DNA of 21,023 nt from a virus. The notes beneath the pieces were generated by a model, which was given only the letters and a program-made list of their open reading frames with translations, was not told the DNA's origin and searched no databases. This document shows, in pieces, positions 7,392 through 14,114 of this stretch (position 1 is the stretch's first letter; every line of letters begins with the position of its first letter). The position numbers and the translations under genes were made by a program. The DNA lies in the IMG/VR virus record IMGVR_UViG_3300046001_003483, positions 1-21,023 of that record; one strand, written 5' to 3'.

Positions 7392-7673
7392 TTAGTAAGA
7401 ACTATTTATTAGTAAGAACATTATATCTTGACCATTAGTTATATCTTCACCATTACTTATATCTTCATTAAGTTTTTCAATATATTCTTCAAATCCATCA
7501 TAGCCAGTTAGTTCTATTTTTAGTTTAGATAAATCATCATACATTGCCTCTGATAATTTAAGTCTTTCATCGTAATCATCTATATCACTAATTATTAATA
7601 TACCTGATAAGATCACATTAAGTTTGTAATTTAATTCTTTATTCATATTTTTGTAATTTAATTCTTTATTCAT
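7392..7673 (-). CDS. Hypothetical acidic protein, 93 residues
   Basis: A minus-strand gene with its own Bacteroidota-type promoter just upstream (7693-7724) and a terminator beyond its stop. The product is acidic and probably helical, with a hydrophobic stretch near the start (LNVILSGILIISDID) and an Asp/Glu-rich C-terminal half. A 27-base tandem duplication gives two start codons (7673 and 7646) with the same flanking bases, so a 93- and an 84-residue form are possible. No family is recognised. Placement beside the helicase-methyltransferase suggests an accessory or regulatory role, which is inference. Confidence 0.65.
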   Translation of the reverse strand: MNKELNYKNMNKELNYKLNVILSGILIISDIDDYDERLKLSEAMYDDLSKLKIELTGYDGFEEYIEKLNEDISNGEDITNGQDIMFLLINSSY

Positions 7674-7692: not shown

Positions 7693-7724
7693 CAAAGATA
7701 CGAATAATTATTGACTTGACAAAA
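7693..7724 (-). promoter_or_regulatory. Bacteroidota-type promoter for the 93-residue gene
   Basis: Reading the minus strand, TTTTG (7720-7724) is followed after 19 bases by TATCTTTG (7693-7700). This fits the Bacteroidota -33 TTG / -7 TAnnTTTG consensus. The start codon is 19 bases further on. The 14 bases TTCGTATCTTTGTA are identical to those before the helicase gene. Confidence 0.8.
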
Positions 7725-7802: not shown

Positions 7803-7830
7803 AAAAGCCATCCATTGGATGGCTTTTTTT
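7803..7830 (-). terminator. Terminator after the helicase-methyltransferase gene
   Basis: AAAAGCCATCC (7803-7813) pairs with GGATGGCTTTT (7817-7827) around a 3-base loop, immediately after the minus-strand stop codon. On the minus strand it ends in TTTTA; on the plus strand in seven T. It separates the helicase gene from the 93-residue gene, which then needs its own promoter. Confidence 0.82.
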
Positions 7831-10800
7831 ATTTAATACCATCTATGTAAATAAATTTGTCTGTATTTTTATATATATCAGAACATTTAAATCCACAACT
7901 TTCAATTATATCTTTTAATCTTTTTTCGTTGTTTTTCCATTTGCTTGCTGGCTCTGCTATATATAATTTACCACCAATTGATAATGTTCTATATGCCTCT
8001 TTTATATAATCTTTGCAATTTCTACCCATTAGTGCCAAACATATAACAGCAACATCTAATGTTTCGTCAGGTAAATTTGTATTTTTTATATCACACTCAA
8101 TTACAGAATCATCTACCGCAATATAGTCAAATGGATAAATTATATTTTTATCAGAAATCTTTTTAGACAGAAGATTTTCACCACAACCAAAATCACCTAC
8201 AATTGCACCTTCTTCAATTCTATCAGCTATATTATAGACTGGTACTTCTAACCAATTTTTAGTAGCTTCTTTATATAGTTCGTGATATTCAAACCAATCT
8301 TCTGGATTATCTTTTAATTGTTTTTGTATAGTATCAGAATTAGACACACTCCAATTTTGATTCATTTCTGAAAATCTGCCTAATTTAAACTTTCTTCTAT
8401 TATCTTCATCTAATTCTTCTAATATAACCTCATCTGCTGTTCTGTCAATAGAATTCATACCATTTTCTTCAATTCTTTTTTTCCATTCTATTAATGAATT
8501 TATAGCAGTTCTTTCTAATGATGCTCTATCCATAATTTTATCAGAAGGTATATTACCATCAACCGCACAGTCTGCTAATGTTTTTTTCCAATTAATTCTA
8601 TCTACTCTGTGTTTGTCCCATGACCATATTTGACAATCTGTTTCTATATTTATCATAGGTACTGTAATTGTAACTTTATTAGTTTGACCTGGACGATATA
8701 ATCTACCGATTAATTGTATCCAGTTAGCATTAGTCCATGGTAAAGAATAAACAATCATATTATCAGATACATTTTGTAAGCCATCAATACCAGTATTTAT
8801 ACAAGACGAACCAATCAGTATATCAACTTGACCATTTACAAACTTATCTTTACCTGCTTTATCATCACCTATAAAAAGACCTACACTAAATCCTTGTTGT
8901 TCGCAAAATTCTTTAATAGGTAATACTAAACCATCTATATATTCGCAATATATTAATGTTCCTTTTTTTAATAAATGTTTTGTTGCTTCTAATTTAAGAT
9001 TCAGAATAGTCCGTTCAATAGGTAATGTTGGATGCTTCTTATCAATCAATAATAAGTCATTAACTAATTCTTGTCCGTCAATTATAGGATAATTAATATC
9101 CATATCTATATTGTATTGTGGTTTAAATCTAATACCATTATTGACTAATTGTGTATGTATCATAATGGCGTTATTAACATCATTTTTACCACTGATTTCT
9201 GGAAATTTTTTATTTAATGCCAATTCAAGTAAAGTTTTAGCTTCATAAAGATTATTAATAACAGGTGTGCCTGTTAGTGACATTACTTTTGTATCATAAT
9301 TAACACTATTATTCATCTTATAGATTTTATCTAAGGTGCCTAATAATGTTTTTCTTCTTATTGATTCTTCTTTTTCGGTAGTTTGCTTTGCCTTTTGTAT
9401 CTCATCAATAATAACCGCTGCAAAATGATATTGATTTAATATATCTAATATGTCATTATTTAATCCTTGTTGGAAATATTCATAGTTTAAAATTAAATAG
9501 TTCCACTTTGTACCACTATTATCAAATGTGCATTTCTTATTACCTTTTAAATCTTCTCTTATTACAATATGATTATGGTTAAATGATTTTTTAATTTCTT
9601 TAACCCAGGTATCAATAGTAGCATTACAAGTAATAATTAAAGTATTACAAACACCGAGTAATTTAGAAACTACTATACAAGGTAGTGTTTTACCAGCACC
9701 AGGTAATGATAGGTTCATATATGAATTTCTTTCATACATTTCATAGGCAAATACTTTTTGCTCCATATATAAATCATGTGGAAATATATAAGTATCACCT
9801 TCAATACTTCCTCTATAATCCCAATGTTCTATATTATATATCTTTTCTAATAGTTTAGTTCTTAATGTATCAGAAAAACCATTCTTCTCAAATATTTCAT
9901 TCTTAAAATAGGCAAATGTTATTTTATCATTAACATATACATTCATCCATTCATTTATATATGATTCTTGTAAAAATATATAAACTTCATTATCCATAAA
10001 TGAAGATAAATTAACCATATCAATGGCTTTCATCTCTCTTAATCTTCTACCAGAAGTTAAAGTTTTATCCTCAGTTATATCAAAATCATCTTCATCATAA
10101 GTATCAGTATCACCATTTAATCCTGAATATAAATCTTCATATGCTTTATTTTGTTGTTCTTCTGTATCCGCATTAATTAATCTTTTAAAGGCAGTATTTT
10201 TTCTTAATGTTTCTAAAAAATAACCATTTTTAGCAGCCTGTATTATTACAATAAGATTTATTGAACTTAAAGTCTTCATAACCGGTTCAAGTTTAGTAAT
10301 GAAATCTAAAACTTCTTGCTTTATTTCTCTACTTATAATATATTTTGCTATATTACCAGTACCTAAAAAATCACCCAAAGATGTCCATCCTTTATCTTTA
10401 TAAACAATATCTGGTGTTTTTGGTATATCATTTGGTAATAAACCAGATTTACAATAAGTAATCCATTCTTTTTGATTTTTTAAATTTAAAGTATGTACAT
10501 ATAATTCCGCTTCTTTATAAGATTTGTGTTGTATATTAAATGTCGCAATTGTGCCTGTACCTAAAAAATCACCCCAAGAAATCCATCCTTTATCTTTATA
10601 ATATATAGCAGCTCCTTTTGGTATGTCTGTTGGTAATAATCCATCTTTAACACATTTTTTCCATTCTTCAACATTGTTCAATTTTAAAGTCTGCACATAT
10701 TCTTTTGCATCTTCATAATTTTTAAATTGCATATTTTGTGTCGCAATCGTGCCGGTGTCTAAAAAAGCACCCCAAGAAATCCAACCTTTATCTTTATAAA

Positions 10801-11329
10801 ACTTGTCGGGTGCTTTTGGTATATCTTGTAATAATAAACCAGATTTAGCATAATTCCTCCATTCTATTTGAGATTTTAAATTTAAAGTCTGCACATATTC
10901 TTTTGCATCTTCATAATTTTTAAATTGCATATTTTGTGGTGCAATTATTCCAGTGCCTATAAAATCACCAAAAGAAATCCAACCTTTATCTTTAAAAACT
11001 TTTCGTGGATTCTTTGGTATATCTGCTGGTAATAAACCAGATTTAGCATAATCTAACCATTCTGTTTGAGATTTTAAATTTAAAGTCTGCACATATATCT
11101 TTGCTTCTTCATAATTTCTTATATTTTTACATGAGCATCTATTTGTGCCTAAAAAATTATTTAAAGATATCCATCCTTTATTTTTATATGTGCTGGCTGG
11201 ATGCTTTGGTATATCATCAGGTAATAAACCTGATTTACAGTATGTTGTCCATTCTTCACGATTTTTTAAATTTAAACTATGTGCATATAATTCCGCTTCT
11301 TCATAAGTTCTATATTGTATTTTACTCAT
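7829..11329 (-). CDS. Five-repeat / SNF2 helicase / Rrp8-like methyltransferase fusion
   Basis: This 1166-residue protein has three parts. Residues 6-325 hold five repeats of about 60-66 residues with the pattern YEEA..Y...L.LK...EW..Y.KSGLLP.DIP....YKDKGWISWGDFLGTG, the phage-integrase repeat (INT_rpt). Residues about 515-920 form an SNF2-type SF2 ATPase: Walker A SLPGAGKT (541-548), DEIQ (642-645), SLTGTPVINN (684-693) and QLIGRLYRPGQ (872-882). Residues about 1008-1166 match Rrp8-type SAM methyltransferases: FEYHELYKEATKNWLEVPV, DFGCGE (1046-1051), YPFDYIAVDDSVIECD and VICLALMGRN (1095-1104). Rrp8 in eukaryotes makes m1A in rRNA; the substrate here is unknown. It is leftward, has a host-type promoter and an adjacent terminator, so it behaves as an independent accessory gene. 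Confidence 0.88.
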   Translation of the reverse strand: MSKIQYRTYEEAELYAHSLNLKNREEWTTYCKSGLLPDDIPKHPASTYKNKGWISLNNFLGTNRCSCKNIRNYEEAKIYVQTLNLKSQTEWLDYAKSGLLPADIPKNPRKVFKDKGWISFGDFIGTGIIAPQNMQFKNYEDAKEYVQTLNLKSQIEWRNYAKSGLLLQDIPKAPDKFYKDKGWISWGAFLDTGTIATQNMQFKNYEDAKEYVQTLKLNNVEEWKKCVKDGLLPTDIPKGAAIYYKDKGWISWGDFLGTGTIATFNIQHKSYKEAELYVHTLNLKNQKEWITYCKSGLLPNDIPKTPDIVYKDKGWTSLGDFLGTGNIAKYIISREIKQEVLDFITKLEPVMKTLSSINLIVIIQAAKNGYFLETLRKNTAFKRLINADTEEQQNKAYEDLYSGLNGDTDTYDEDDFDITEDKTLTSGRRLREMKAIDMVNLSSFMDNEVYIFLQESYINEWMNVYVNDKITFAYFKNEIFEKNGFSDTLRTKLLEKIYNIEHWDYRGSIEGDTYIFPHDLYMEQKVFAYEMYERNSYMNLSLPGAGKTLPCIVVSKLLGVCNTLIITCNATIDTWVKEIKKSFNHNHIVIREDLKGNKKCTFDNSGTKWNYLILNYEYFQQGLNNDILDILNQYHFAAVIIDEIQKAKQTTEKEESIRRKTLLGTLDKIYKMNNSVNYDTKVMSLTGTPVINNLYEAKTLLELALNKKFPEISGKNDVNNAIMIHTQLVNNGIRFKPQYNIDMDINYPIIDGQELVNDLLLIDKKHPTLPIERTILNLKLEATKHLLKKGTLIYCEYIDGLVLPIKEFCEQQGFSVGLFIGDDKAGKDKFVNGQVDILIGSSCINTGIDGLQNVSDNMIVYSLPWTNANWIQLIGRLYRPGQTNKVTITVPMINIETDCQIWSWDKHRVDRINWKKTLADCAVDGNIPSDKIMDRASLERTAINSLIEWKKRIEENGMNSIDRTADEVILEELDEDNRRKFKLGRFSEMNQNWSVSNSDTIQKQLKDNPEDWFEYHELYKEATKNWLEVPVYNIADRIEEGAIVGDFGCGENLLSKKISDKNIIYPFDYIAVDDSVIECDIKNTNLPDETLDVAVICLALMGRNCKDYIKEAYRTLSIGGKLYIAEPASKWKNNEKRLKDIIESCGFKCSDIYKNTDKFIYIDGIK
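10355..11314 (-). repeat. Five INT_rpt-type repeats within the helicase gene
   Basis: Repeat units cover residues of about 6-65, 72-127, 138-193, 202-259 and 270-325. Similarity is also visible in the DNA: blocks such as TTTAAATTTAAAGT with GCACATAT, and AAAAATCACC with CTTTATCTTTATA, recur with a period of about 200 bases. Units 3 and 4 share an identical opening (NMQFKNYEDAKEYVQTL), which implies recent duplication or conversion. Confidence 0.9.
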
Positions 11330-11346: not shown

Positions 11347-11378
11347 CAAAGATACGAAAATAATTCTATACTAACAAA
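11347..11378 (-). promoter_or_regulatory. Bacteroidota-type promoter for the helicase gene
   Basis: Reading the minus strand, TTTG (11375-11378) is followed after 20 bases by TATCTTTG (11347-11354), and the ATG lies 17 bases further on. The core and flanks match the promoter at 7693-7724. It sits just after the stop of the 85-residue gene. Confidence 0.8.
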
Positions 11379-11390
11379 TTATTTTCATAT

Positions 11391-11648
11391 TTAATTTAAT
11401 ATACTATCAATCTGTGATTCACGCCATTCAGCCATTGATATAACATTTAATTTATATTCTATATAATCAACTAAGTACCAATCGCCATCTATCATTATAG
11501 ATGCCTTGTTACATGCTATTTCGCTAATAGGTTCATTATTCATATCTTTAAAATCAACCCATGCTTCTTTTATAATTCCTGCTGGTAATATAAATCCAGT
11601 AATTTCGTCAGTTAAGTCCGAAAGGACTACATAATTGCTAATCTTCAT
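11391..11648 (-). CDS. Hypothetical protein, 85 residues
   Basis: A minus-strand gene upstream of the helicase gene. The product is mixed alpha/beta, with a probable small beta domain (NYVVLSDLTDEITGFILPAG, then ASIMIDGDWYLVDYIEYKL) and a short C-terminal helix (MAEWRESQIDSIL). No motif or family is recognised. A weak promoter-like GACTTTTG lies 22 bases before the ATG on the minus strand, one base off the TAnnTTTG form, without a clear -33 partner. It may be cotranscribed with the helicase gene, since no hairpin separates them. Confidence 0.6.
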   Translation of the reverse strand: MKISNYVVLSDLTDEITGFILPAGIIKEAWVDFKDMNNEPISEIACNKASIMIDGDWYLVDYIEYKLNVISMAEWRESQIDSILN

Positions 11649-11845: not shown

Positions 11846-13015
11846 ATGAACATTACAATTCCAACACCATTGGTTGATATTATCTTCCAAGCCATAAATA
11901 TAGATGCCACATTTATGGATTTTAACGAAAAACAAAAGCAAAAGATTTTTAATAACTGTATAGAATTATGGTTATATATATTGTCACAACAAGATGGCAA
12001 CAATTATATTAATATACATAATACAACATTGGATAAATATTATGTAAAAATAGATAAAAAGTATGGTTATAAGTATTTTTTAACTATATTAGAAAATGCG
12101 AACATATTAGATATAAACAATAAGTTTAAATATGGTACATTTCCAAAAAGTTATAGAGTATTATGTAACTTTACTGCCGACAAAAATACAACAGAAATAA
12201 ATATAGATTTAAATAAAGTATTCCATAATATACAATCAAAAGAATATTGGTTAGATAAATATCCTAAATATGCTCATTTAATAGAAGATTGTTATAGGAC
12301 TAAAATAGAATTAAATGATTGGGTAATCTTTTTATATAGCAATGAGAATATAAAATTAAAATCAACCATAAAAAATGGCTTTTTTAAAGAAAGATATTTA
12401 AATGCTGATAGAATTATGGATTATATTATGAGAGCAATAAAGGTTAATGTTAATAATCTATGGTTTGGTATATCTGAACAAGGTCGCTTTTATTCTTCAA
12501 TAGCATCTTTACCAGCATTAATTACACCATTTATTAGAATAGATAATAAACCAGTAGAGAGTATTGATATACCAAATTGTCAACCATTATTATTGTCATC
12601 ATTAATAGGTAATAATGATTATAAACAAGATGTAGAAAATGGTTTATTTTATGAGAAATTAGGTAAAATAATGTATGGCGAATGGAATGTAGATGTAAAA
12701 CAAAAAGTAAAGTTACAAGTAATGGTAAGATTTTTTAACCAAGATCAATTAAAGACTGGTGAATTTGTAGATGCTATTAATTTTTTATATCCAGGATTTA
12801 TACAACAATTAAACTTACTTAAAGAAACCAACAAGATAGCTCACTTAACACACAAAATGGAGTCTACAATAATGGTAGAAGGTGTTGGGTCATTAAATAT
12901 GAATAAGATACTTAAACATGATGAGGTATTAATTTATAAAGAAAATGTTACAAAGGTAAAGAAATATATAGAGAATAAGATATTAAATATTTTTTTGGTG
13001 AAGGTAAGTTTATAA
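11846..13015 (+). CDS. Compact family-A DNA polymerase-like protein
   Basis: This 389-residue protein shows three elements in the order and rough spacing of family-A polymerase palms. Motif A is ESIDIPNCQPLLLSSLIGN with D241, followed by NDYKQDVENGLFYEKLGKIM, as in the DYSQIELR...EGxDIH stretch. A motif-B-like helix is VKQKVKLQVMVRFFN (285-298). Motif C is LKHDEVLIYKENVTKVKKYI, with HDE at 358-360. The residues before motif A, GRFYSSIASLPALITPFI, also fit. The first 200 residues are helical with no visible 3'-5' exonuclease motif. The protein is far shorter than Pol I, so it may be a replication or repair enzyme or a degenerate relative. It follows a structured leader. A slippery T-run near the end may give an alternative C-terminus. 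Confidence 0.6.
   Translation: MNITIPTPLVDIIFQAINIDATFMDFNEKQKQKIFNNCIELWLYILSQQDGNNYINIHNTTLDKYYVKIDKKYGYKYFLTILENANILDINNKFKYGTFPKSYRVLCNFTADKNTTEINIDLNKVFHNIQSKEYWLDKYPKYAHLIEDCYRTKIELNDWVIFLYSNENIKLKSTIKNGFFKERYLNADRIMDYIMRAIKVNVNNLWFGISEQGRFYSSIASLPALITPFIRIDNKPVESIDIPNCQPLLLSSLIGNNDYKQDVENGLFYEKLGKIMYGEWNVDVKQKVKLQVMVRFFNQDQLKTGEFVDAINFLYPGFIQQLNLLKETNKIAHLTHKMESTIMVEGVGSLNMNKILKHDEVLIYKENVTKVKKYIENKILNIFLVKVSL
12991..12997 (+). other. Possible -1 slippery heptamer near the polymerase-like stop
   Basis: T TTT TTG in the reading frame is followed after six codons by the TAA at 13013-13015. A -1 shift would read FFGEGKFINNK and end at 13041, nine codons later than the zero frame. The same heptamer occurs in the tail chaperone gene. 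It could equally be chance in a T-rich tract or a sequencing slip in the seven-T run. Confidence 0.3.
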
Positions 13016-13110: not shown

Positions 13111-13467
13111 TCAACTAAACCACTTATTATCTTTATTAAGAGCATATGTTACAGACCACTGTTTCATATGCTCTTTTTCTTTTTTAAGTAATAATTTTCT
13201 AAACGAAGAATCTAACGCTTTACCTTTAAGTCCTGTTTCTTCTCTATGAGAAGTCTTACTTACAATCTCTAATATTTTAAATTCCCAATCAGTAATAGGT
13301 GATGAATTCCATAAATCAACCAATTTAATTGAAGTATGTTTAGTCATTTTTATATCAGAATAGTGACTACCCCATCTACCAAATATATCAGTAGACATAC
13401 CAATATAATATTGCTCAGTTATTTTATTATAAATCTGATATATACCAGCCAATTTTCTTTTAAACAT
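13111..13467 (-). CDS. GIY-YIG endonuclease, probably free-standing homing type
   Basis: This 118-residue minus-strand protein has GIY at 8-10 and YIG at 21-23, ten residues apart, the signature of the GIY-YIG fold. R31 (FGRWGSH) and an acidic residue in the KKEKEHMKQW segment (E97 or E99) fit the catalytic Arg and Glu. It consists of little more than the nuclease domain. A longer frame exists to 13584, but the first 39 residues are hydrophobic low-complexity sequence, so I take the Met at 13467. It is inserted against the direction of its neighbours, between the polymerase-like gene and another nuclease gene, as mobile homing endonuclease genes often are. Confidence 0.85.
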   Translation of the reverse strand: MFKRKLAGIYQIYNKITEQYYIGMSTDIFGRWGSHYSDIKMTKHTSIKLVDLWNSSPITDWEFKILEIVSKTSHREETGLKGKALDSSFRKLLLKKEKEHMKQWSVTYALNKDNKWFS

Positions 13468-13524
13468 ATTTATTATACCATAAAAATAATTTTTGTTTAA
13501 CCATAAATAGTCCATATAGGAGAG

Positions 13525-13546
13525 CCATATATTTTTATATATATGG
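13525..13546 (+). promoter_or_regulatory. Hairpin directly before the nuclease start
   Basis: CCATATAT (13525-13532) pairs with ATATATGG (13539-13546) around TTTTAT, one base before the ATG at 13548. It would occlude ribosome access and could limit translation of the nuclease. Some phage endonuclease genes are held down in this way; here it is inference from sequence only. Confidence 0.5.
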
Positions 13547-13547
13547 T

Positions 13548-14114
13548 ATGAATTATATAAAAACAGGTGGTAAACTAAATACAATTAACGAAAAATATGG
13601 TATTAATAATCCTAAAAAATGTGGATTTAGCATGAACAACATAATAAATAATAATAAATTTGACAGCGAAGAAGATTTATTAAATTTTATTGGTAAAGAT
13701 AAAATACAACAATATGGTAAAGAATTATTTGAAGCAAGCATACAAGAAAATTACCAATCATCATTAGAAGAATGCATCAATTTCCAATATAGCCTATTTG
13801 TTGTTAACTCATTTAAAGGATTTAAAATGGAGAATAAAGCATACGAACTCCTTAAACATAATTATAATATAAAAAAGGCAACAAGCGATATAGATTGTAA
13901 TTATTCAGTTGACCTTGTAATCAAACATAATAATACTATAATAGGTATACAAGTAAAACCAATATCTTATATAAATATGCCTAAACATAAAAAACAAATA
14001 AATATTATTAAAAACAACAGATTTAAAACTGAATATAATGCCAAAGTTCTATACCTATTTTATTCACCTAATGAAGAATTTACGAATATGGAAACCATAT
14101 TACAATATATATGA
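13548..14114 (+). CDS. PD-(D/E)XK nuclease, restriction-enzyme-like (MjaI-type)
   Basis: This 188-residue protein has a C-terminal half with the layout of a PD-(D/E)XK nuclease: E100 (ENKAYELL), D122 in YSVDLVI, and Q135-V-K137 in IIGIQVKPISY. The segment from VDLVI to QVKPISY resembles the MjaI family of type II restriction endonucleases, where a variant Gln can replace the acidic residue of the catalytic pair. The N-terminal half is polar and Asn/Lys-rich, perhaps for DNA recognition. A GIY-YIG gene lies divergently next to it and a DNA methyltransferase lies 2.3 kb downstream. It may degrade host DNA, act as a restriction enzyme, or be mobile cargo. Confidence 0.65.
   Translation: MNYIKTGGKLNTINEKYGINNPKKCGFSMNNIINNNKFDSEEDLLNFIGKDKIQQYGKELFEASIQENYQSSLEECINFQYSLFVVNSFKGFKMENKAYELLKHNYNIKKATSDIDCNYSVDLVIKHNNTIIGIQVKPISYINMPKHKKQINIIKNNRFKTEYNAKVLYLFYSPNEEFTNMETILQYI

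Follow-up and report, generated by a model that had tools for sequence, protein, structure and literature searches.

What does a phage use a protein for in which a tandem repeat array, an SNF2-family motor and an Rrp8-type methyltransferase domain are joined? The question is raised by an SNF2-Rrp8 fusion gene in a 21,023-nucleotide stretch of viral DNA (positions 1 to 21,023 of IMG/VR record IMGVR_UViG_3300046001_003483; the whole stretch is called the window below). Rrp8 has been treated as a eukaryotic nucleolar enzyme, and its domain has now turned up in phages and plasmids as well as in bacteria and archaea, nearly always together with a DNA motor and exchangeable repeats. Our tentative answer, to which we give a probability of roughly 0.45, is that the protein is a DNA-tracking base methyltransferase that is addressed by its repeats and acts in conflicts between mobile elements and hosts. 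The gene and its parts are the following.

7829-11329, minus strand: SNF2-Rrp8 fusion gene, 1166 amino acids (aa), a single open reading frame (ORF) with an ATG start
10346-11305, minus strand: five INT_rpt-like units (residues 9-65, 73-130, 139-196, 205-262 and 271-328)
8540-9772, minus strand: SNF2-family motor (about residues 520-930)
7844-8407, minus strand: Rrp8-type methyltransferase domain (residues 975-1162)

An earlier, sequence-only reading of the window had proposed these three parts within one gene, and all of them, as well as the fusion itself, were borne out. Misassembly or a chance fusion was rejected because the gene is present with 100% identity in contigs from two further metagenome records (L002 and L003) and homologous fusions occur in several phyla. 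An identical copy is also found in a complete 34-kb Bacteroidota-type phage.

Motor and methyltransferase domain

The full set of SNF2 motifs is present in the motor region, namely the Walker A motif GAGKT (residues 544-548, with K547), DEIQ (642-645), SLTGTP (684-689) and QLIGRLYRPGQ (872-882), and the region was matched by the Pfam models SNF2-rel_dom (2.1e-9) and Helicase_C (9.2e-8). For an AlphaFold model of the fragment from residue 340 onward (pLDDT 78, pTM 0.69), the best Foldseek matches of the motor were translocases of nucleosomes or DNA, namely ISWI, BAF, INO80 and Mot1 (E to 1e-15), together with RapA. Motif set and fold thus both place the protein in the SNF2 family, with which it shares the two RecA lobes (as in ISWI/BAF/INO80, Mot1 and bacterial RapA); it differs from these proteins in having no chromatin-reader domains, a C-terminal methyltransferase, and N-terminal INT_rpt or, in relatives, treble-clef arrays. 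An alignment of 34 motor-methyltransferase parts contained invariant motor residues, and as judged by sequence and predicted structure the motor is intact. SNF2 proteins translocate on double-stranded DNA. Of the two targets put forward by the sequence-only reading, RNA and opened DNA, the predicted double-stranded DNA translocase structure and the neighbouring DNA-modification genes of relatives lean toward DNA, and ATP-driven translocation along duplex DNA would be expected of the window motor from its family.

The C-terminal domain (residues 975-1162) was matched by PF05148 (Methyltransf_8) at 1.2e-38, with 133.6 bits against a gathering cut-off of 27, and human RRP8 (2ZFU) matched the window protein in phmmer with E=6.9e-25. 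Foldseek placed the domain on 2zfu (nucleomethylin) with a TM score of 0.82, an rmsd of 1.8-1.9 Å and 32% identity over 191 columns. DFGCGE (1046-1051), Y1015-H1016, W1026, D1068, D1080 and N1104 are all found in it. In an alignment of 52 Rrp8 domains, human RRP8 being one and the other 51 prokaryotic or viral, Y1015, H1016, W1026, P1030, D1046-F-G-C-G1050, D1068 and D1080 (window numbering) are invariant, and S998 is kept in 51/51 domains having a residue at that column. This family shares with Rrp8/nucleomethylin the fold, the S-adenosylmethionine (SAM) motif DFGCG[ED] and a set of residues (Y-H, W, P, D and N) with little or no variation. By alignment and model, the SAM site and the active site are intact and the same as in human RRP8, and formation of N1-methyladenosine (m1A) is a predicted chemistry. 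The eukaryotic enzyme differs in that it has neither a motor nor a repeat array and acts on ribosomal RNA (rRNA), making m1A645 in 25S rRNA and m1A1322 in human 28S rRNA (PMC6085284), whereas the prokaryotic or viral domain nearly always sits within a motor protein. The activity that defines the eukaryotic enzyme is m1A formation in helix 25.1 of the large-subunit rRNA. A standalone prokaryotic Rrp8 was considered and rejected: strong matches (E<1e-15) in the phylum surveys sit in frames of at least 869 aa, except for a 183-aa Rrp8 ORF (G005:C258, L088) that overlaps the end of its own SNF2 ORF, as in L027. In G003, a copy of 357 aa that still bears the SNF2 end is a remnant. A Trichocoleus genome contains a truncated second copy (L092, 4826-5833; SNF2 end plus Rrp8) alongside a full one.

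Repeat arrays and spread of the family

The N-terminal units of the window protein are 57-58 residues long at a spacing of 64-66, and four short helices per unit were predicted by AlphaFold (array mean pLDDT 84, pTM 0.34, no fixed overall shape). A search for fold relatives of the array in the PDB found none. The Pfam INT_rpt model PF14882 gave no match at E<1 to the window protein, nor in G000. A profile made from the five window units found the same repeats in L007, which PF14882 matches at 9e-11; the name INT_rpt is therefore right for the window units by way of relatives such as L007, and not by a direct match.

The Rrp8-domain search yielded 18 viral and 36 genome loci, and a second scan added a few more viral loci. 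Since more than 50 relatives were found, in phages (up to 379 kb) and plasmids, in archaea, and among the bacteria in cyanobacteria, Myxococcota, Acidobacteriota and Chloroflexota, the possibility that the architecture is unique to the window phage was rejected. Full-length members have a common order of tandem modules, SNF2, a conserved linker and Rrp8. The repeats that alternate at the front end across the family are of three kinds: INT_rpt (4-9 copies in fused proteins), treble clefs of the 'KYDYS' type (DUF723/DUF4379; up to 9) and treble clefs of the 'WHPTKN' type (DUF4379; 3-9). Five copies of yet another unit can be read from the sequence of L008. At other loci the motor-methyltransferase ORF is repeat-less and is adjoined by separate repeat genes: one in L012, one on the opposite strand in L082, six in tandem in a 308-kb phage (L016/L062), and, in a Nitrosopumilus locus (L051/L061), five that overlap and a larger one farther on. 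No repeat module was seen in the Ktedonobacteria copy (L046). What changes is the front end, a tandem array that can be swapped and is either fused or encoded by 1-6 adjacent genes; the motor-methyltransferase core is constant. This split-or-fused pattern across loci is good evidence, from gene arrangement, that arrays and core work together.

Within the INT_rpt units, columns 16, 17, 20, 30, 34, 35, 37 and 38 are the most variable in cell and virus repeats alike (rho 0.85), and the scaffold columns are conserved, a pattern consistent with a fixed scaffold that bears a free surface. A first count was suggestive of positive selection at the variable positions. When variable columns were chosen from cell loci and then tested on virus loci, nonsynonymous and synonymous rates (pN and pS) were about equal, and positive selection is not supported. 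Two units of an array in L061 (2-1558, minus strand; residues 7-61 and 326-383) are almost identical though far apart, a sign of recent repeat copying.

The family is rare and patchy, at about 1% or fewer of the sampled genomes per group. Carriers made up 3/194 cyanobacteria, 2/189 Myxococcota, 2/151 genomes in the phylum of Nitrosopumilus (L051), 2/201 Chloroflexota (phylum of L046) and 1/149 Acidobacteriota (phylum of L024), where each count includes the seed genome. Members were also found on three plasmids, and cultured strains with plasmid copies include Crinalium epipsammum PCC 9333 and Rhodococcus sp. WAY2. None was present among 50,697 sequenced phage records, in which tblastn matched repeats or motor motifs alone, and no named or cultured phage with the fusion was found. 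Since the PLSDB members are annotated merely as 'zinc-ribbon domain-containing protein' and the sequenced phage records hold none, the family is easy to miss. In trees the viral members group together (13/14 in one, 14/14 with support 90 in another), suggesting an old phage lineage. The window protein forms a long branch whose exact placement is unsure, and human RRP8 joins the cellular part of the tree closest to archaeal rows, a position that lacks support.

Gene neighbourhoods, known systems and possible roles

In 12 loci the SNF2-Rrp8 gene directly follows a gene for an MmeI-like methyltransferase, with a gap of 5 nt in L043. These loci come from metagenome-assembled genomes (MAGs) of Myxococcota or Deltaproteobacteria and from one Acidobacteriota MAG; two of the 12 share one MAG. 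The partners are about 50-65% identical among loci, match REase_MTase_IIG (1e-233) and DrmMI (up to 1e-74) in PADLOC, and have all Pfam MmeI domains listed for the N, helical, methyltransferase and target-recognition parts. The nuclease motif E-x-K is replaced by E-V-A, D-V-V, H-V-A or similar, the lysine being absent from all eight readable copies as read by eye on one phmmer alignment to MmeI 5HR4, and so the pair seems to be free of a nuclease. Elsewhere, L030 adjoins an ABC-3C conflict pair (DUF2326 plus CTD10), and L045 a large NTPase that may have a nuclease-like front. In phages L008 (1974-3215) and L019 (1091-2319) an IS1595-type transposase lies two genes upstream of the SNF2-Rrp8 gene, which is also preceded in both by an 80-aa ORF with a shared start; this suggests a mobile cassette.

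Two further groups of known systems come close. DISARM (DrmD, DrmMI) resembles the 12 myxobacterial-type loci in pairing an SNF2 protein with an MmeI/DrmMI-like DNA methyltransferase. It differs in its helicase, as the motor here matches DrmD weakly (about 1e-5 to 1e-6; for the window protein E=3.4e-5 in PADLOC and 14.3 bits against an NCBIfam cut-off of 610) and is followed by an additional Rrp8 domain. drmA and drmB were not noticed in the locus flanks that were read, which were never scanned systematically for them. Type IIL/IIG MmeI enzymes share the four partner-gene domains and differ in that the PD-ExK lysine is lost here and a separate SNF2-Rrp8 gene follows; the SNF2-Rrp8 proteins, too, have no nuclease domain, whereas Type I, II or III restriction-modification combines a nuclease with a cognate methyltransferase. 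Its helicase type and the lack of a nuclease set the family apart from DISARM and restriction-modification. PADLOC 2.0.0 gave no specific strong match for the window protein, the best being BrxHI at 5.6e-8 through motor motifs only. The sequence-only reading knew of no described system with this architecture. Literature searches (Rrp8+phage+SNF2, Methyltransf_8+SNF2, INT_rpt+helicase, Rrp8+domain fusion; subscription journals and preprints outside the search) likewise found no paper describing it. The architecture extends beyond this phage and belongs to a widespread uncharacterised family. Every part is known and defence by SNF2 plus methyltransferase exists in DISARM, yet a mechanism of a new kind is a realistic prospect.

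In the mechanism we propose, the repeat array would choose the target, and the motor would run along duplex DNA, or strip a nucleic acid-protein complex, and present an opened strand to the methyltransferase domain. This domain would methylate a base, most likely adenine at N1 as Rrp8 does, and the product would disable the target because N1-methyladenine blocks Watson-Crick pairing. In DNA, 1-methyladenine is damage that is reversed by AlkB (PMC544882). In cells the protein would act on incoming DNA, and in myxobacteria the nuclease-dead MmeI-like methyltransferase would mark self; in the phage, its targets would be the chromosome or mobile elements of the host, or rival phages. An accessory role in conflict, be it counter-defence, exclusion of other phages or host takeover, had been suggested by the sequence-only reading, and it fits the rarity of the family, its carriage by mobile elements and its DNA-methyltransferase and ABC-3C neighbours. 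The more than 50 loci, the invariant residues, the DNA-translocase fold matches, the split or fused repeats and the variability of the repeat columns also speak for the proposed mechanism. Several points weigh against it. The tested Rrp8 enzymes all modify rRNA (PMC6085284), and any activity of the fusion protein is a prediction. Nucleic-acid binding by INT_rpt is an assumption, as the fold has no solved relative, and the variable columns change at about the synonymous rate, well above the scaffold and not clearly faster than synonymous sites. Most viral and cyanobacterial members have no adjoining DNA-methyltransferase or defence gene, and the loss of the partner nuclease is the by-eye reading described above. 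A bolder version, which we consider unlikely, is a conflict mechanism of an entirely new category, in which a motor guided by exchangeable repeats disables DNA by pairing-blocking m1A instead of cutting it, the nuclease-dead MmeI-like enzyme marks self in bacteria, and eukaryotic Rrp8 is a domesticated offshoot of the prokaryotic family.

The proven job of Rrp8 on 25S and 28S rRNA, the retention of its specific Y-H and W residues and the presence of RapA, which acts on RNA polymerase, among the fold matches would all suit a rather unlikely but serious alternative: the motor would serve to remodel ribonucleoproteins or transcription complexes, and m1A made in host rRNA, tRNA or mRNA would shut off or retune host translation. 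Yet SNF2 motors work on double-stranded DNA, the cellular neighbours are DNA-modification genes, and rare genes borne by mobile elements are unlikely housekeeping rRNA modifiers. Less probable is self-marking, by which a carrier phage or plasmid would evade host nucleases through methylation of its own DNA or removal of host proteins from it; other modification genes do occur in carriers of both kinds, and the window phage has an N6_N4 methylase, but a pairing-blocking m1A would harm the carrier's own genome, and chromosomal members in cells do not suit a purely self-protective phage role. Least plausible to us is that the gene is selfish-element cargo, or that it encodes a factor for chromatin or replication, with the repeats steering the protein toward sites of recombination or insertion. 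INT_rpt takes its Pfam name from phage integrases and the IS1595 transposase of L008 and L019 would agree with this, but most loci have no recombinase and the strictly conserved methyltransferase site would be left unexplained. Given its scattered occurrence, often next to DNA-modification genes, the family may represent a novel type of molecular weapon or a device for marking. It offers concrete material for asking where Rrp8 originated, what its arrays of INT_rpt or treble-clef units recognise, and whether N1-methylation of bases is put to use as a weapon or a mark.

Expression signals and carrier phage

The surroundings of the fusion gene contain these further features.

11347-11378, minus strand: Bacteroidota-type promoter TTTG-N20-TATCTTTG, just 5' of the fusion-gene ATG
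7803-7827, no strand given: terminator-like stem of 11 pairs, T-rich on both sides, right after the fusion-gene stop
11391-11648, minus strand: 85-aa ORF directly upstream of the fusion gene on the same strand; no family
7392-7673, minus strand: 93-aa ORF downstream of the fusion gene in the same accessory block; no family
7693-7723, minus strand: promoter TTTG-N19-TATCTTTG belonging to the 93-aa ORF

The host-type promoter and terminator that had been claimed for the fusion gene were thus recovered. TTTG/TATCTTTG boxes of the Bacteroidota type occur six times in the window against 1.1 expected, and 0/100 shuffles reached six. The 85-aa ORF may be co-transcribed with the fusion gene or independent of it. 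A 389-aa gene (11846-13015, plus strand) without a clear family in Pfam or PHROGs adjoins the accessory block.

The window overlaps a 34,159-bp IMG/VR record, and the ends of this record overlap by 126 bp, which gives the phage a circular map of about 34.0 kb. The phage has genes for terminase, portal, protease and lysozyme, and for presumed capsid and tail proteins. Among the matches listed, its terminase is nearest to those of Parabacteroides and Flavobacterium phages (about 33% identity), which fits the promoter type. The fusion gene takes up 10% of the genome, lies on the strand opposite to most genes and adjoins a tRNA-Met. Related phages with an empty site in place of the fusion gene were sought, and only near-identical contigs were found.

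The gene at 13548-14114 (plus strand) encodes a member of the MjaI restriction endonuclease family (PF09568, 1.4e-6). MjaI cleaves CTAG. This tetranucleotide is absent from the whole 34-kb genome (L063+L064), where about 65 copies are expected from trinucleotides, and the phage may therefore carry a nuclease to which its own genome is blind. ACGT and CGCG are likewise absent and GGCC is rare, indicating that other pressures act too. A GIY-YIG endonuclease gene (13111-13584, minus strand) overlaps the start of the MjaI-like gene, and the N6_N4 DNA methylase gene lies elsewhere in the same genome (16442-17653, plus strand).
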